From: a virus
DNA: 52,365 nucleotides
Strand: one strand, 5' to 3'
IMG/VR virus record: IMGVR_UViG_3300018414_000009
Coordinates: 1 to 52,365 of that record
Below the pieces are notes generated by a model. It searched no databases. It saw only the letters and a program-made list of their open reading frames with translations, and was not told where the DNA came from. Positions 2-51,791 of this stretch are shown here, piece after piece; within the stretch, counting starts at the first letter, position 1, and each line of letters begins with the position of its first letter. Both the position numbers and the translations under genes were made by a program.

Positions 2-880
2 ATGTTAAGAAATCACTTAACTACTCAACGTAAAACCTATGAAATTTCAGGATCAGCTTCTACCGATGTAATGGCGGTAATGATGAAAGATCCTAAAACC
101 GGAAAAACCTCTACCATGTGGACAGATGTTCAAAAATGGACTTTTTATGAACAATGGTATCGTGAACAAGAAAGAGCCATGATCTATTCTACTTACAACG
201 CAACTCCGACCGGATTTGTGGATATGAAAGGATCAAACGGTCGCCCAGTATATATTGGTTCTGGTTTACGTGAACAAATTGCTCCTGCTAACCAAAGAAC
301 CTATACTGTTCTTACTGAAAACATTATTCGTGAATTCCTGATGGATCTTTCTTATAATGTGATTGATAAAGGTAAACGTAAATTCGTGGCTCTTTGTGGT
401 GAGTATTTCATGGATGCTTTTGACAGAGCTATGAAGCAATCGGCTAATCGTTTCCAATTAATCGATACTCATTTTGTATCTGGAGAAGGTCAAGATTTAA
501 CTTTAAAAGGTCAATTCACTTCTTACTACGGATTGAATGGTACTGAGATTACTTTAATGCACATGCCAATTTATGACGATCCAATTCACAACCGTCAACT
601 TCACCCAATCACAGGTCGTCCTTTAGAATCGTACAGAGCTACCTTTATCGATTACGGTATGTATGATGGAAAATCTAACATTCAGAAATATGCTAAGAGA
701 GATCGTGAAAGCGTAATGTGGCAAACCGCTGGAGCAAGTTCTGATGCGGGTCATTCGAATTCTGTTTCAAACATTCGTTCTAACACCTTAGATGGACATG
801 CAGTTCACTTCTTAGCTGAAACCGGAATTGCTATTCAAAATCCATTATCATGTGGAGAATTGATCTGTAACGCATCCTAA
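2..880 (+). CDS. Major capsid protein, crAss-like (5'-truncated by window edge)
   Basis: The last 292 residues of what I take to be the major capsid protein, which builds the icosahedral head. The text resembles the C-terminal part of crAss-like capsid proteins: a helical stretch around residues 40-60 (KWTFYEQWYREQERAMIYST), a long mixed alpha/beta region, and a C-terminus rich in Gly, Ser and Asn. Capsid proteins of this group are usually near 500 residues. The ATG at base 2 is therefore probably an internal Met and the true start lies upstream of the window. It is the first gene of the plus-strand structural block and is followed after 35 nt by a conserved unknown. The family call rests on recognition and on the downstream crAss-type gene order. 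A major tail or scaffold protein is much less likely. Confidence 0.72.
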   Translation: MLRNHLTTQRKTYEISGSASTDVMAVMMKDPKTGKTSTMWTDVQKWTFYEQWYREQERAMIYSTYNATPTGFVDMKGSNGRPVYIGSGLREQIAPANQRTYTVLTENIIREFLMDLSYNVIDKGKRKFVALCGEYFMDAFDRAMKQSANRFQLIDTHFVSGEGQDLTLKGQFTSYYGLNGTEITLMHMPIYDDPIHNRQLHPITGRPLESYRATFIDYGMYDGKSNIQKYAKRDRESVMWQTAGASSDAGHSNSVSNIRSNTLDGHAVHFLAETGIAIQNPLSCGELICNAS

Positions 881-10164: not shown

Positions 10165-11951
10165 TGAAAAAAATAGTATTGTTCATTTTATTGATTTGTT
10201 CACTGTACGTGAATGGTCAAGCTCCTACGTTTACAGCTAACACGTTTATTCCTTCAGCTACCACATCACATTATGCTTACGGTATTAATGCTCAATTTTA
10301 TGGAGATGGATCAGATCCCGCTTTCACAGCCCATGGCTTATTTTATCCTAATTATCAAGATTCTATTCAAGCCCATATTGCTAGAGACTTGGGGGCTAAA
10401 TCAGAAAGATTAGGAGATTTTGAGGATCAATATTATTTATTTTCTTTACCTAATGGTCAACCTAACTGGGCTATTCATAAAGCTAATTATTTATTTTATG
10501 GTAATCAAGGAGGAATGAGTGATATTGCTTGTTTCATGAATACTGTGTCAGATGGAAACTTAGATAAACGAGTTTATAATAATCCAGTAGCCACGGGCAA
10601 TACTCATTCACCATATCATTCTTTAGTATTTAGAAATCTTTATGATTCAACCAATAACGGTAATATTTGGAACGCGGATGGTTCTCCAGATACAGTTAGT
10701 CCTATGGTTAGATATGTTAAAAATTTCGTTCTCACATATGGTCAACAAGCCACTCCAAAAGGAGGAGTAAGATATTTTTCAGTTTGGAACGAACCGGATA
10801 TATTTGATTATTCTGGTACAGGTATTATTGATACATTAGGTGTACCTGCTCCTCAAGACATGCATAATTTATATTGTCCAGCATATTTTTACATTCGTAT
10901 GTTACGAATAACATACGAAGTCGCTCATCATTATTATCCAAATTGTATTGTACTTACGGGTGGAATTGGTTATCCTGGATTTTTACATTTTTTACTAACT
11001 AATACAGATAACCCTGGTTCTGATTTTACAGGAGATCCTACTAAAGGATCAGGTACAAAATCTTCCTTATACCCTAATTTCGGAGGAGCTTATTTTGATG
11101 CAATTGATTTTCATAATTACCCAGGTTATTCTTGGAGTACTTATAATAATACCACCAATCGAACAGATAGATTAGCGAATTCAGATAATGCTTGTAATAT
11201 ATTTTTAGCTTCTTTAAATGGATTTAAAGCATATTTAGCTCAATATGGATATGATGGAACTAAATATCCAGCTAAGTTCTTTATATGTACGGAAACAGAC
11301 TTACCTTCATATACATCTTTCAATACATGGGCTACATTTGGTAGTTACGAAATTGAACGAAATTATGATACTAAAATTGCTGTAATAGCTCAACGAAATG
11401 GAATTAGACAGGTTTATTATTACGCACAAACAGACAATGTAGTTTTACCTAATAACGCCAATAATCCAGGAGATCCGAACGGATCAATGGGTAAATATTT
11501 CTTTTTATCTAATCACACATCTTATTCTCAATTTCAGAAAAAACCATCAGGAGTAGCTATGACTACCCATGCTAATTTATTTTACGGATATGATTACGAT
11601 GCTACTAAATCAGCGGCTTTAAACTTACCATCAACTTGTGATGGCGGAGCATTCACCAATTCCACAACAGGAGTTACAAGATACGTTCTTTGGGCTAAAT
11701 GTACAGGGGATGCAGATGAAAGTTTGGTAGCAGGAAATCAAACTCTTAAAAATAGTCAAAATACTACATTTACTAACGTGGGGAGATCAATAACTTACAC
11801 TATTCCATCGGGAATATCTTTTTCAAAAATTTGGAATTGGGATGCTTCTTATGTTCCTAATAATGGATTTATCTATTGGTCAAGTTATCCTTATCAAAGT
11901 TTTCAAGGTCAAAAATTAATTTTAACTGGTACTCCAATATTCGTACAATAA
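10164..11951 (+). CDS. Secreted glycoside hydrolase-like protein, clan GH-A fold
   Basis: A 595-residue protein with a signal peptide (MKKIVLFILLICSLYVNGQ, cut near residue 19). The body looks like a (beta/alpha)8 glycoside hydrolase of clan GH-A. FSVWNEPD at the end of a predicted strand gives a candidate acid/base E210, and FICTETDLPS gives a candidate nucleophile E377; the spacing is normal for the clan. The last 100 or so residues look like a beta-sandwich accessory domain. The likely substrate is a host capsule or cell-wall glycan. It is coupled to the signal-peptide protein upstream and overlaps the next gene's start by one base. An exported enzyme inside a fibre island is unusual because virion proteins normally lack signal peptides. 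It may act on the host surface or clear glycan during lysis. Confidence 0.68.
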   Translation: MKKIVLFILLICSLYVNGQAPTFTANTFIPSATTSHYAYGINAQFYGDGSDPAFTAHGLFYPNYQDSIQAHIARDLGAKSERLGDFEDQYYLFSLPNGQPNWAIHKANYLFYGNQGGMSDIACFMNTVSDGNLDKRVYNNPVATGNTHSPYHSLVFRNLYDSTNNGNIWNADGSPDTVSPMVRYVKNFVLTYGQQATPKGGVRYFSVWNEPDIFDYSGTGIIDTLGVPAPQDMHNLYCPAYFYIRMLRITYEVAHHYYPNCIVLTGGIGYPGFLHFLLTNTDNPGSDFTGDPTKGSGTKSSLYPNFGGAYFDAIDFHNYPGYSWSTYNNTTNRTDRLANSDNACNIFLASLNGFKAYLAQYGYDGTKYPAKFFICTETDLPSYTSFNTWATFGSYEIERNYDTKIAVIAQRNGIRQVYYYAQTDNVVLPNNANNPGDPNGSMGKYFFLSNHTSYSQFQKKPSGVAMTTHANLFYGYDYDATKSAALNLPSTCDGGAFTNSTTGVTRYVLWAKCTGDADESLVAGNQTLKNSQNTTFTNVGRSITYTIPSGISFSKIWNWDASYVPNNGFIYWSSYPYQSFQGQKLILTGTPIFVQ

Positions 11952-37156: not shown

Positions 37157-38536
37157 TTATTTAGTTTTTTTCCAAAAAGCATTTCTTTGCCAATCTCCTG
37201 CCATAATACAACCGTAGGGTTTAATTTCGTCCAAAACGTTACCTAAATTATAATCATTCATTTGTTTTTTAACCACATCGGCATTTTTATAAGCACTGGG
37301 TAATTCTGAAATATCTATAAAATTAGAAAAAAATCTAACGTCTAATCCTTTAGTTTCTTCCTTAAATATTTCAATTTCCGATCGATTATTTTTATTGGTT
37401 AATTCGTGTTGTCTACGACTAATATTTCTTCCAGCCCCATGAGGAGCGAATCCTAAATTATTTTTTGTGGTTTTACCTGAAACAATCAAAATAGGTTCAC
37501 TCATATTCATAGGAATAATTCTAAAACCGTAAGTACTATCGGGAACAAATTTATTATCCAAAGGAGTAGCTCCTTTAGCGTGATAAAACAAATCATTTTC
37601 TTTAAAAACAAAATTATGTTCATTCCAATAACTAAAATAAGTGGATTCTATTTTTAATTTTTCACAAATGGTTTTATGAATTATTTCGTGATTGTATTTA
37701 GTCCAATCTCTAACCACTTGCAAAGCTTCCCAATAAATTTCACCTTCTTTGGTGTTATAAGGAATCCATGGATTTTTATTAGATGATTTAGGGGATATTT
37801 CTTTTCGAAATTTTTCAGTAATTTTCATACCTGTTTTATATAATCCAGCTCCTAATCCTCTACTACCATGGTGAGTAATTAAAACTACTGACCCGTTAGC
37901 TTCAGACGTACCAACAAATAAGAAATGATTACCGTCTCCTTGGGTTCCTAAATGAGATTTAGCAATATGTAACTCATTCTTTAAATACAAGTTTTTAACG
38001 ATTTTTTCTTCTAGTTCTTCGGGTAATTTAAATTGATCTTTTCTACCACCTGGACCAAAATGAGTAGTTTCAAAAGCTACGTCTAATAATAATTTACAAG
38101 ATATTGAAGATGGAAGATGAGTAGCTTTTAATGAACAACATATATCCGAACTATGAAGGGCTGGATGAATTGCGTTTTTAGTTACTACGATTCCTCCTAC
38201 TGGTATTTGTCCTTCTCCTGTAGGACAAGCATCGGGCATTATAGCTCCAGTTATAACAGTCGGAGCTTTCATTACCTCATCCATGGCTTGAAATACTTTG
38301 TTTATGTTTTGTTGCTCCTGTAAAGAACCCGATTCATTATGAATATTCTTGTGATAAAACACAGGTTTTGAATGGGGTTCTTTTTCTTCAACCATTGTAC
38401 TCATAACATACTGTTTCAATTCCTCTTCAGATAATGAATGAGAATTAGCATATTCGATGATGGATTTAAAATGTCGATTGGGAGTAAAACCTAAATCAAT
38501 TAAATGTTGACCTGAAATCACAGTAGGAAGGTTCAT
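37157..38536 (-). CDS. rtcB: RtcB-type RNA-splicing ligase
   Basis: A 459-residue GTP- and Mn-dependent RNA ligase that joins 2',3'-cyclic phosphate or 3'-phosphate ends to 5'-OH ends. Key motifs are intact: D131 and C133 (SSDICCS), GDGNHF with H204, the HHGSRG metal-binding site (H222/H223), EHNFVF with H307, the HAKGATP stretch (319-325), and H366 in APHGAGRNISRRQ, the His that takes GMP. The N-terminal 60 residues carry a non-standard extension. Phage RtcB is usually thought to repair tRNA or mRNA cut by host anticodon nucleases or toxins. It lies between the methyltransferase and the Cys-rich gene in the leftward operon. It is not needed for group I splicing, which is self-catalysed. Confidence 0.92.
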   Translation of the reverse strand: MNLPTVISGQHLIDLGFTPNRHFKSIIEYANSHSLSEEELKQYVMSTMVEEKEPHSKPVFYHKNIHNESGSLQEQQNINKVFQAMDEVMKAPTVITGAIMPDACPTGEGQIPVGGIVVTKNAIHPALHSSDICCSLKATHLPSSISCKLLLDVAFETTHFGPGGRKDQFKLPEELEEKIVKNLYLKNELHIAKSHLGTQGDGNHFLFVGTSEANGSVVLITHHGSRGLGAGLYKTGMKITEKFRKEISPKSSNKNPWIPYNTKEGEIYWEALQVVRDWTKYNHEIIHKTICEKLKIESTYFSYWNEHNFVFKENDLFYHAKGATPLDNKFVPDSTYGFRIIPMNMSEPILIVSGKTTKNNLGFAPHGAGRNISRRQHELTNKNNRSEIEIFKEETKGLDVRFFSNFIDISELPSAYKNADVVKKQMNDYNLGNVLDEIKPYGCIMAGDWQRNAFWKKTK

Positions 38537-47634: not shown

Positions 47635-48138
47635 TTAGTTATTAGTGGTTTGAGTTGTTGTGGGTTTAGCCGGAGTTACGTCAATGGATTGAGTTTTTTT
47701 AGGTTTAACGATTTCCGCTTCATCTCTATAATATTCATCCATCCGGTTTAAAACAAATTGAAGATCGTTGTCAATATAAGTATCTTCAAACATTCCCATA
47801 GGACTTTTACAGGTATCTTGACCATTAGTACGAGTTCTGAATACATATCGTAATCCATTTTCGCCTTTAATCACTTCTGAATACAATACTGTAGTAAATA
47901 ACCCATCAAACGTTACTTGTTTGTCGATCAATTTACCAGCGGTTTTAATTTTGGTAAATTTATTACCCATATCATCATAATCCGTTTCGGTATGGGACAA
48001 ATAAATAATGGTGAGATCATCTCTTAAATTAGAATCATGGGATCCAGCATTATAAATATGTTTACTCAAATCATTCCATTTTCCATATCCGTTTTCATCT
48101 ACTCGTGTCATAATGGATTGCGCTATTGCATATTGAAA
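47635..48138 (-). CDS. Exon 2 of interrupted recombination-type AAA/RecA-like ATPase
   Basis: The 3' part of the split ATPase gene; joined to exon 1 (48395-48658) it gives about 255 residues. It begins at TTT (48138), directly after the last base of the intron, and reads FQYAIAQSIMTRV... so that the Walker B Asp-Asp of exon 1 joins Phe-Gln-Tyr. Later parts include TIIYLSHTETDYDDMGN, the sensor-like segment of Sak4-type ATPases, and a Lys/Thr-rich C-terminus. An ATG (48141-48139) made from the last three bases of the intron gives an apparent separate start, which I think is not the true one. It lies 14 nt ahead of the SSB-like gene, a usual partner. Confidence 0.78.
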   Translation of the reverse strand, partial: FQYAIAQSIMTRVDENGYGKWNDLSKHIYNAGSHDSNLRDDLTIIYLSHTETDYDDMGNKFTKIKTAGKLIDKQVTFDGLFTTVLYSEVIKGENGLRYVFRTRTNGQDTCKSPMGMFEDTYIDNDLQFVLNRMDEYYRDEAEIVKPKKTQSIDVTPAKPTTTQTTNN

Positions 48139-48394
48139 CATTTATTACCCTAGAAGCTCTTTATCTCCTAGTTCTACATTTTTATAAATCTTGTATTATA
48201 TATGTAGTTTAGACTATCTCTTATAAGAACCTAAATTCTTACCTCCGCACTCGTGGTATTTCATAATCCGTTCTGGATCGTATATACTAGTCGTTGATCC
48301 TGCAAAACCATTCCTGGTAATGATTGGATTAGGATATTCTGTACCCAGAAGTCTCCAGATTCACGAAGTTTAACGACAACCTTCAATTTATTTG
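48139..48394 (-). other. Group I self-splicing intron (256 nt, no endonuclease ORF)
   Basis: The RNA from 48394 to 48139 (minus) interrupts the ATPase gene. Exon 1 ends GACGAU, which pairs with GUUGUC (intron positions 15-20), with the required U.G pair at the splice site (P1). The sequence just 5' of this, UUGAAG, pairs with the first six bases of exon 2, UUUCAA (P10). Group I core strands are present: GACUA in AUCAACGACUAG (48292-48288) and UAGUC in AGAGAUAGUC (48216-48212), forming P7. A P9-type stem (CUAGGAG with CUUCUAG) is near the 3' end. The last base is G. Splicing restores the ATPase frame at phase 0. At 256 nt it is compact and too small to encode a homing endonuclease. Confidence 0.85.
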
Positions 48395-48658
48395 ATCGTC
48401 AATAATGAGAGTTTTAATTTCCGGTCGTTTTTCCGAAATAGCATTAACCCAAGTTAATACTTTTACAAACTCATTCTCATTCACCAAATTTCCATTGGGA
48501 TTTTCCTTATTACAAATTTTGTAATTTGTCCTGGATTTAGGAAAACTTAAATCCTTTTTACCACAATTTATGATGAATGTGGTTTTCGGGTCCAGCGTTC
48601 GTATCGACGTGGATTTACCCGATCCGGAAGCTCCGGCAATCATTAGTTTTTTACTCAT
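48395..48658 (-). CDS. Exon 1 of interrupted recombination-type AAA/RecA-like ATPase
   Basis: The first 88 codons of the ATPase. The Walker A motif GASGSGKS is at residues 8-15 and the Walker B strand TLIIDD lies at the very end, so the intron is placed directly after the catalytic Asp pair. Unspliced reading goes on for only three codons (QIN) before TGA at 48385-48383. The whole protein (about 255 aa with exon 2) looks like phage Sak4-type ATPases, which act with SSB in single-strand annealing or recombination. SSB-like, RusA-like and exonuclease genes lie downstream. Its start is 17 nt after the end of the 101-residue gene. Confidence 0.82.
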
Positions 48659-50794: not shown

Positions 50795-51217
50795 TTATTT
50801 TCCAGTTGATCCAAATCCTCCGTCTCCTCGATTGGTAGATGATAGTTCCGAAACCTCCTGAAATTCCAGATATGGACGCTGGATGATGATCAATTGAAGA
50901 ATGCGATCTCCTACATTATATTCCGGTTTAGCGAATGCTCTGAATCTAGCTTTGATTTCTCCTCGATATGTAGAATCTAAAACACCCACTGAATTACTTA
51001 AAACTAATCCGAATTCGGATATACTAGACCTAGGGAACAATAACCCCACATGATCTTCTGGAATTTCAATGGCGAGTCCTGTTCCGTATTCCCAATAACC
51101 TGTGCTACCCTGGGTCATTACTTTAGATGTAGCGACTAAATCTACTGCTCCGTCCCCATCATTAGCGTATTTTGGAATTCGGGCTGAGTCGTTTAACTTT
51201 TTAATTTTTATGTTCAT
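50795..51217 (-). CDS. dut: dUTP diphosphatase (dUTPase)
   Basis: A 140-residue trimeric dUTPase that converts dUTP to dUMP and keeps uracil out of the DNA. All five family motifs are present: DGAVDLVA (22-29), PRSSISEFG (62-70), GVLDSTYRGEI with catalytic D81 and Y84 (78-88), GDRILQLII (103-111) and NRGDGGFGSTG (129-139), the last containing the R and glycine-rich lid. Length is standard. It overlaps the end of the Rieske-motif gene by 17 nt, so the pair is translated together. It suggests a DNA-precursor function for this part of the operon. Confidence 0.97.
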   Translation of the reverse strand: MNIKIKKLNDSARIPKYANDGDGAVDLVATSKVMTQGSTGYWEYGTGLAIEIPEDHVGLLFPRSSISEFGLVLSNSVGVLDSTYRGEIKARFRAFAKPEYNVGDRILQLIIIQRPYLEFQEVSELSSTNRGDGGFGSTGK

Positions 51218-51791
51218 TAATTAATTGTTTAGTTTTCGCGTCAAATTGTAAACTGTGGAGAGGACACGTTATAACTCCATCTATTTCAGGTACTTGAGAT
51301 AAGTCATATCCTTTATGGGGACATTTACCTTTATGAATACATTTATGGATCAATTTAGAATTTTTTATAAGAAAAGTACTTGTTGAAAAGTTTTCAAAAT
51401 TGTGATCCTCATACCTATTAATAACCCTTAAGTTTCTATATTCAAAACGATAATTAGATTTAGGTACAATTCTAGTTCTAGTTATTAAATCTAATACAGA
51501 TTGTGAAAATTCATATATATTAGCATATTTTGAGTCTAATCTTTGTTCTAAAACGGAATATTTTTCTCTATGTATTTCTGTTTTTATAAATCTAAAATCA
51601 GCATGATAATGGGGTTCATATTGACCGTTTTCAAAATCAGTATGTAAGTGATTTATTAAAGGAATTATGGTTGTTGTTAATTTATCGAGTTTTTTACTCT
51701 CTTCTACAAAACACAATACTTCGTATACTTCTTCAGGTTTTAAAGGTCGTTTAACGTCTTCTACTTTTAAAATAAGACTGGAAAAACTCAT
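51201..51791 (-). CDS. Protein with C-terminal Rieske [2Fe-2S] motif
   Basis: A 196-residue protein. The first 150 residues are helical and beta with many Asp, Glu and Lys and no familiar motif. The C-terminus holds CPHKG (C157, H159) and CPLHSLQFD (C176, H179), i.e. C-x-H, 16 residues, C-x2-H. That is the standard spacing for a Rieske [2Fe-2S] cluster as in ferredoxin subunits of oxygenases. An additional CIHKGK lies just before it. No oxygenase or reductase domain is in the same chain. It overlaps dUTPase (17 nt). It may serve as an electron carrier in nucleotide metabolism or base modification, an idea from position only. Confidence 0.62.
   Translation of the reverse strand: MSFSSLILKVEDVKRPLKPEEVYEVLCFVEESKKLDKLTTTIIPLINHLHTDFENGQYEPHYHADFRFIKTEIHREKYSVLEQRLDSKYANIYEFSQSVLDLITRTRIVPKSNYRFEYRNLRVINRYEDHNFENFSTSTFLIKNSKLIHKCIHKGKCPHKGYDLSQVPEIDGVITCPLHSLQFDAKTKQLINEHKN

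Follow-up and report, generated by a model that had tools for sequence, protein, structure and literature searches.

A putative IA-type group I intron in the Sak4-like ATPase gene of a Crassvirales phage

The ATPase locus and its phage context

The window analysed here is the whole of a linear IMG/VR virus record of 52,365 bases. Its minus strand carries two ORFs that together read as one ATPase gene, separated by 256 nt with the features of a group I intron (Table 1) and flanked by genes for a primase, an SSB and a DnaB-type helicase. The nearest match to the MCP of the window is that of the crAss-like phage cr118_1 (Crassvirales, Suoliviridae; 54.6% identity), and, judged from this protein, we assign the window to a Crassvirales phage with its MCP nearest to Suoliviridae. 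The MCP gene itself (2–880, plus strand) matches its profile only from position 200 on, as the contig begins inside the gene. Phage cr118_1 is intron-rich: matches to the covariance model R1 (see below) lie between the fragments of its split MCP, PolB and DnaB genes, that in the MCP gene at 11470–11701 of the fetched locus (L224). A nucleotide-binding protein of cr118_1 encoded at the corresponding place was considered as the Sak4 orthologue and rejected, as the two proteins have no detectable similarity. Elsewhere on the minus strand, the window encodes an RtcB-type tRNA-splicing RNA ligase (37157–38536; PHROG 1075, E = 2.3e-92) and a small phage protein with a C-terminal Rieske [2Fe-2S] domain that scores above the Pfam cut-off (51201–51791).

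Table 1. Predicted exons, intron and RNA elements of the interrupted Sak4-like gene (window coordinates)
Feature	Position	Strand	Description
Exon 1, Sak4-like AAA_24 ATPase	48395–48658	−	88 aa, Walker A GASGSGKST to Walker B TLIIDD
Exon 2, Sak4-like ATPase	47635–48138	−	167 aa plus stop, N-terminus FQYAIA
Group I intron, IA-type	48139–48394	−	256 nt; P7.1/P7.2 present, P2 absent
P1	exon GACGAU 48400–48395 / IGS GUUGUC 48380–48375	−	6/6 pairs, U.G at 5′ splice site
P10	intron UUGAAG 48386–48381 / exon 2 UUUCAA 48138–48133	−	6/6 pairs
P3	CUUCGUG 48368–48362 / UGCGGAG 48249–48243	−	7/7 pairs; covariation on 6/7
P4-P5-P6 domain	48297–48356	−	pairing and centroid fold; covariation in P4, P6, P6a
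P4	GGA 48356–48354 / UCC 48334–48332	−	short: 3 bp (4 if a bulge is allowed)
P5	UUCUG/CAGAA 48350–48337	−	pairing, centroid fold
P6	AUCC 48329–48326 / GGAU 48300–48297	−	pairing, covariation
P6a	ACCA-GGAA-UGGU 48318–48307	−	GGAA loop; covariation
P7, predicted guanosine-binding site	R GACUA 48292–48288 / S UAGUC 48216–48212	−	5/5 pairs
P7.2 GUAU/AUAC around P7.1 GAUCC/GGAUU, between P7 and P3′	48256–48287	−	pairing, covariation
P8	UAAGAA/UUCUUA 48224–48241	−	6/6 pairs; covarying
P9	CUACAU 48207–48202 / AUGUAG 48179–48174	−	pairing
P9.1	CUAGGAG 48171–48165 / CUUCUAG 48156–48150	−	pairing
Terminal omega-G	48139	−	G on minus strand

The exons encode one protein. Profile columns 1–82 of PHROG 2872 are matched by the exon-1 ORF (E = 2.7e-16) and columns 83–212 by the exon-2 ORF (E = 7e-39), so that the two fit end to end. 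As originally predicted, the exons join in phase 0 into 255 aa with residues neither gained nor lost. The joined protein matches this family of Sak4-like ssDNA annealing proteins over positions 1–212 of 219 (E = 6.7e-62, 209.9 bits) and reaches 40.5 bits against Pfam AAA_24, above the cut-off of 27, whereas the separate ORFs score 26.2 and 15.1, below it; the earlier description of the product as a phage recombination ATPase is thus borne out. The junction, LIIDD/FQYAIA, places the intron between the codon of the final Walker B aspartate and the codon that follows, directly after Walker B as had been proposed, and is gapless in 90 uninterrupted homologues from the fetched loci, which read IDD[WYF]QY or similar across it. 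Unbroken relatives exist at 41–46% identity (41–42% for loci L001–L003), and an unbroken homologue is what the original prediction had named as support for the junction. From these protein comparisons we read the two ORFs as a single Sak4-like gene, and the annotation is corrected accordingly.

Structure and homology of the intervening RNA

All of the core helices of a group I intron are present between the exons. P1, P10 and P7 pair at the positions given for them in the original prediction, and the P9-type stem and the terminal G that it had described are likewise in place. The 5′ strand of P3 has an alternative partner, CACGAG (48255–48250), just upstream of UGCGGAG; we consider P3 best placed as CUUCGUG/UGCGGAG, which is the position homologous to that in relatives. 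P7.1 and P7.2 are a hallmark of IA introns, and it is from these predicted elements that the intron is placed in the IA group. They are among the features used to distinguish group I classes (PMC3984707). The 3′ end of the intron resembles that of crAss-like phage introns. The intron was also said to lack a homing endonuclease, and this holds: its sole ORF (41 aa, TTG start) has no Pfam domain, and a Pfam scan found no homing-endonuclease domain among 20 ORFs of the window.

Pairing of P1, P10 and P7 alone is weak evidence, because the combination occurs by chance at three further places in the 52-kb window when both strands are scanned, and we rejected it as a stand-alone test. Folding energy is uninformative (z = −1.49), with a centroid fold that contains P4, P5, P6, P6a, P7.1, P8, P9 and P9.1. 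The Rfam group I search of the minus strand, an empty result of which the original prediction had counted against itself, found nothing for the intron at the gathering score, a threshold that was set by curators and does not define group I introns biologically. At a relaxed E-value, RF00028 gives 14.1 bits against a cut-off of 50, with the alignment misplaced. We attribute this outcome to a technical cause, because Rfam misaligns the intron and leaves a related intron, in the DnaB gene of Bacteroides phage PhiCrAssBcn14, likewise unreported. The low RF00028 score, the short P4 and the folding z-score are among the points that count against the intron reading.

Related introns were located by distant blastn, between gene fragments of other phages, and R1 was built from six relatives with the window sequence left out. 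The model matches the window at 48369–48200 on the minus strand with 104.1 bits (E = 7.1e-27), compared with 12 bits for the runner-up in the window, which shows the intervening RNA to be a homologue of the group I introns of phages. Across 18 aligned introns, standard pairs fill 90.3% of cells, both sides change in 34 of the 41 pairs, and the covariation score is 0.600, compared with 0.173 when shuffled and no more than 0.162 when slid as a control; these figures lean towards structure because the alignment was fitted to the structure of the model, yet the effect is still large. Covariation is strong in nearly all core helices, and P5 is the weakest helix (55% of cells paired). Among individual changes, P7.2 is GUAU/AUAC in the window and GGGU/ACCC in relatives, a double compensatory change, and P7 takes the compensatory form GACCA/UGGUC in the first TerL intron of Vibrio phage qdvp001. 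Together these results uphold the call of a 256-nt group I intron. We regard two independent results as decisive: the R1 match obtained without the window sequence, and the absence of a gap at the junction in 90 homologues.

The PhiCrAssBcn14 DnaB intron (L007 1329–1523) scores 111 bits with R1, of which it is a member, and has no Rfam match at E-values up to 1; Rfam-based surveys therefore miss part of this intron family. Two other relatives do exceed the RF00028 cut-off, namely the TerL intron of qdvp001 whose core is 77% identical to the window intron (90.6 bits) and the intron of Vibrio phage 1.161.O (94 bits), which is 87% identical to the window intron over 62 nt.

Alternative readings and proposed splicing

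The two ORFs could instead be separate genes, with a 91-aa P-loop protein and a 168-aa partner forming a split ATPase without RNA splicing. Each ORF has its own ATG; that of the exon-2 ORF, however, consists of the last three intron bases (AUG, 48139–48141), which are in frame with exon 2 and give the ORF an apparent start, so that gene-calling programs will wrongly list it as a gene in its own right. The exon-1 ORF in turn runs on into the intron for three residues (QIN), and a split ATPase leaves the R1 score of the sequence between the ORFs unexplained. In the phage collection, moreover, the homologue covers at least 80% of the query at one place in 493 of 493 records, and it is a single piece in each phage record among the matches listed. 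We consider a split ATPase very improbable. Somewhat less so, but still quite unlikely, is a decayed, splicing-defective intron that has inactivated the gene. The weak P4 and the low Rfam score would suit decay, whereas P1, P3, P5, P6, P6a, P7, P7.1, P7.2, P8, P9, P9.1, P10 and omega-G are all intact, and both exons are still open and collinear with the ATPase family. An assembly artefact fusing two phages is a further possibility, given that the window comes from one virus record of metagenomic origin; a chance fusion would hardly join precisely in phase 0, leave exons that are complementary with neither overlap nor loss, and supply a guide sequence that pairs with both, and we give this explanation almost no credence.

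The reading we prefer, with a probability of about 0.96, is that an IA group I intron interrupts the gene for a Sak4-like single-strand-annealing ATPase of a Crassvirales phage and is spliced out to give the mRNA for the 255-aa protein. Splicing is what we infer from the sequence, and it may well proceed independently of protein. In the predicted reaction, P1 would be formed by the internal guide sequence and exon 1, with U.G at the splice site, and P10 by the guide sequence and exon 2. The first attack, on the 5′ splice site, would come from a guanosine held in P7 and the second, after omega-G 48139, from the released exon 1; ligation of the exons would then yield an unbroken ATPase mRNA. The intron probably came by homing to a conserved site, by means of an endonuclease that may since have been lost or may be supplied in trans.

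Related introns, insertion site and implications

The closest known intron by sequence is the second in the TerL gene of qdvp001 (KT932418.1, L005 ~1464–1744), with a core 77% identical over 115 nt. Like the window intron, it has P7.1/P7.2, a 3′ end reading AUAAAUG and no annotated ORF, and it sits at the Walker B aspartate codon (VLVD/EATQ) of another P-loop ATPase; it differs in its gene, its guide sequence and its length (~282 nt), and has one more hairpin, located between P7.2 and P3′. The qdvp001 TerL gene as a whole, annotated as three terminase fragments, holds two group I introns (L005 ~868–1101 at Walker A and ~1464–1744 at Walker B). The PhiCrAssBcn14 intron belongs to the same family and has a similar 3′ end (72.8% identity over 81 nt); it sits in DnaB, whereas the window intron is in Sak4, and in that crAss-like phage the intron-bearing DnaB gene adjoins an intact Sak4 gene.

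According to Yutin et al. 2021 (PMC7886860), group I introns occur in core genes of Delta-group (Suoliviridae) and Zeta crAss-like phages, the typical Delta-group targets being the genes for MCP, PolB, primase and an AAA ATPase, ATP_43b. The likeness of the ATP_43b introns to the window intron lies at the level of the AAA ATPase target gene. Given these examples, an intron in a recombination or replication ATPase of a crAss-like phage is to be expected, and the Sak4 intron is a further example of a kind of insertion known in these phages. The introns of that study were found mainly through their endonuclease domains (PMC7886860), whereas the window intron has none. In this it resembles the ORF-less group I introns of T4-like phages, which are homed by trans-acting endonucleases (reviewed in PMC3984707); in contrast to those known enzymes, a trans-acting endonuclease for the window intron is hypothetical. 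Among the papers of the searched literature collection that mention Sak4, intron and phage together, none is on an intron in a Sak4 gene, judged by title and abstract.

Group I introns prefer conserved, functionally constrained sites (PMC2814812), and insertion at Walker B fits this documented preference. With splice sites placed by eye, the first TerL intron of qdvp001 falls in Walker A, as does the intron of 1.161.O, at the codons for this motif in a DnaB-type helicase. These sites, with the two at Walker B, could suggest an IA lineage that has entered the nucleotide-binding motifs of unrelated phage P-loop ATPases time and again, tracking motif codons and not one gene. We think this unlikely: other members of the family lie in capsid, polymerase and further genes, and the plain reading of the pattern is a general preference for conserved sites. 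We found no intron at the same Sak4 site in other phages, with 80 viral contigs (of 570 relatives) continuous across it in a search that places intact genes first and so may have passed over interrupted ones. A pattern scan for the intron end together with exon 2 gave chance matches only, among the matches listed; a search of GTDB genomes found no relative, and the exact P7-to-P7′ core pattern returned nothing in IMG/VR.

The Sak4 intron is a clear case of a genuine phage group I intron missed by the Rfam model. A functional recombination ATPase would need splicing, so intron activity could conceivably tie to the replication of the phage.
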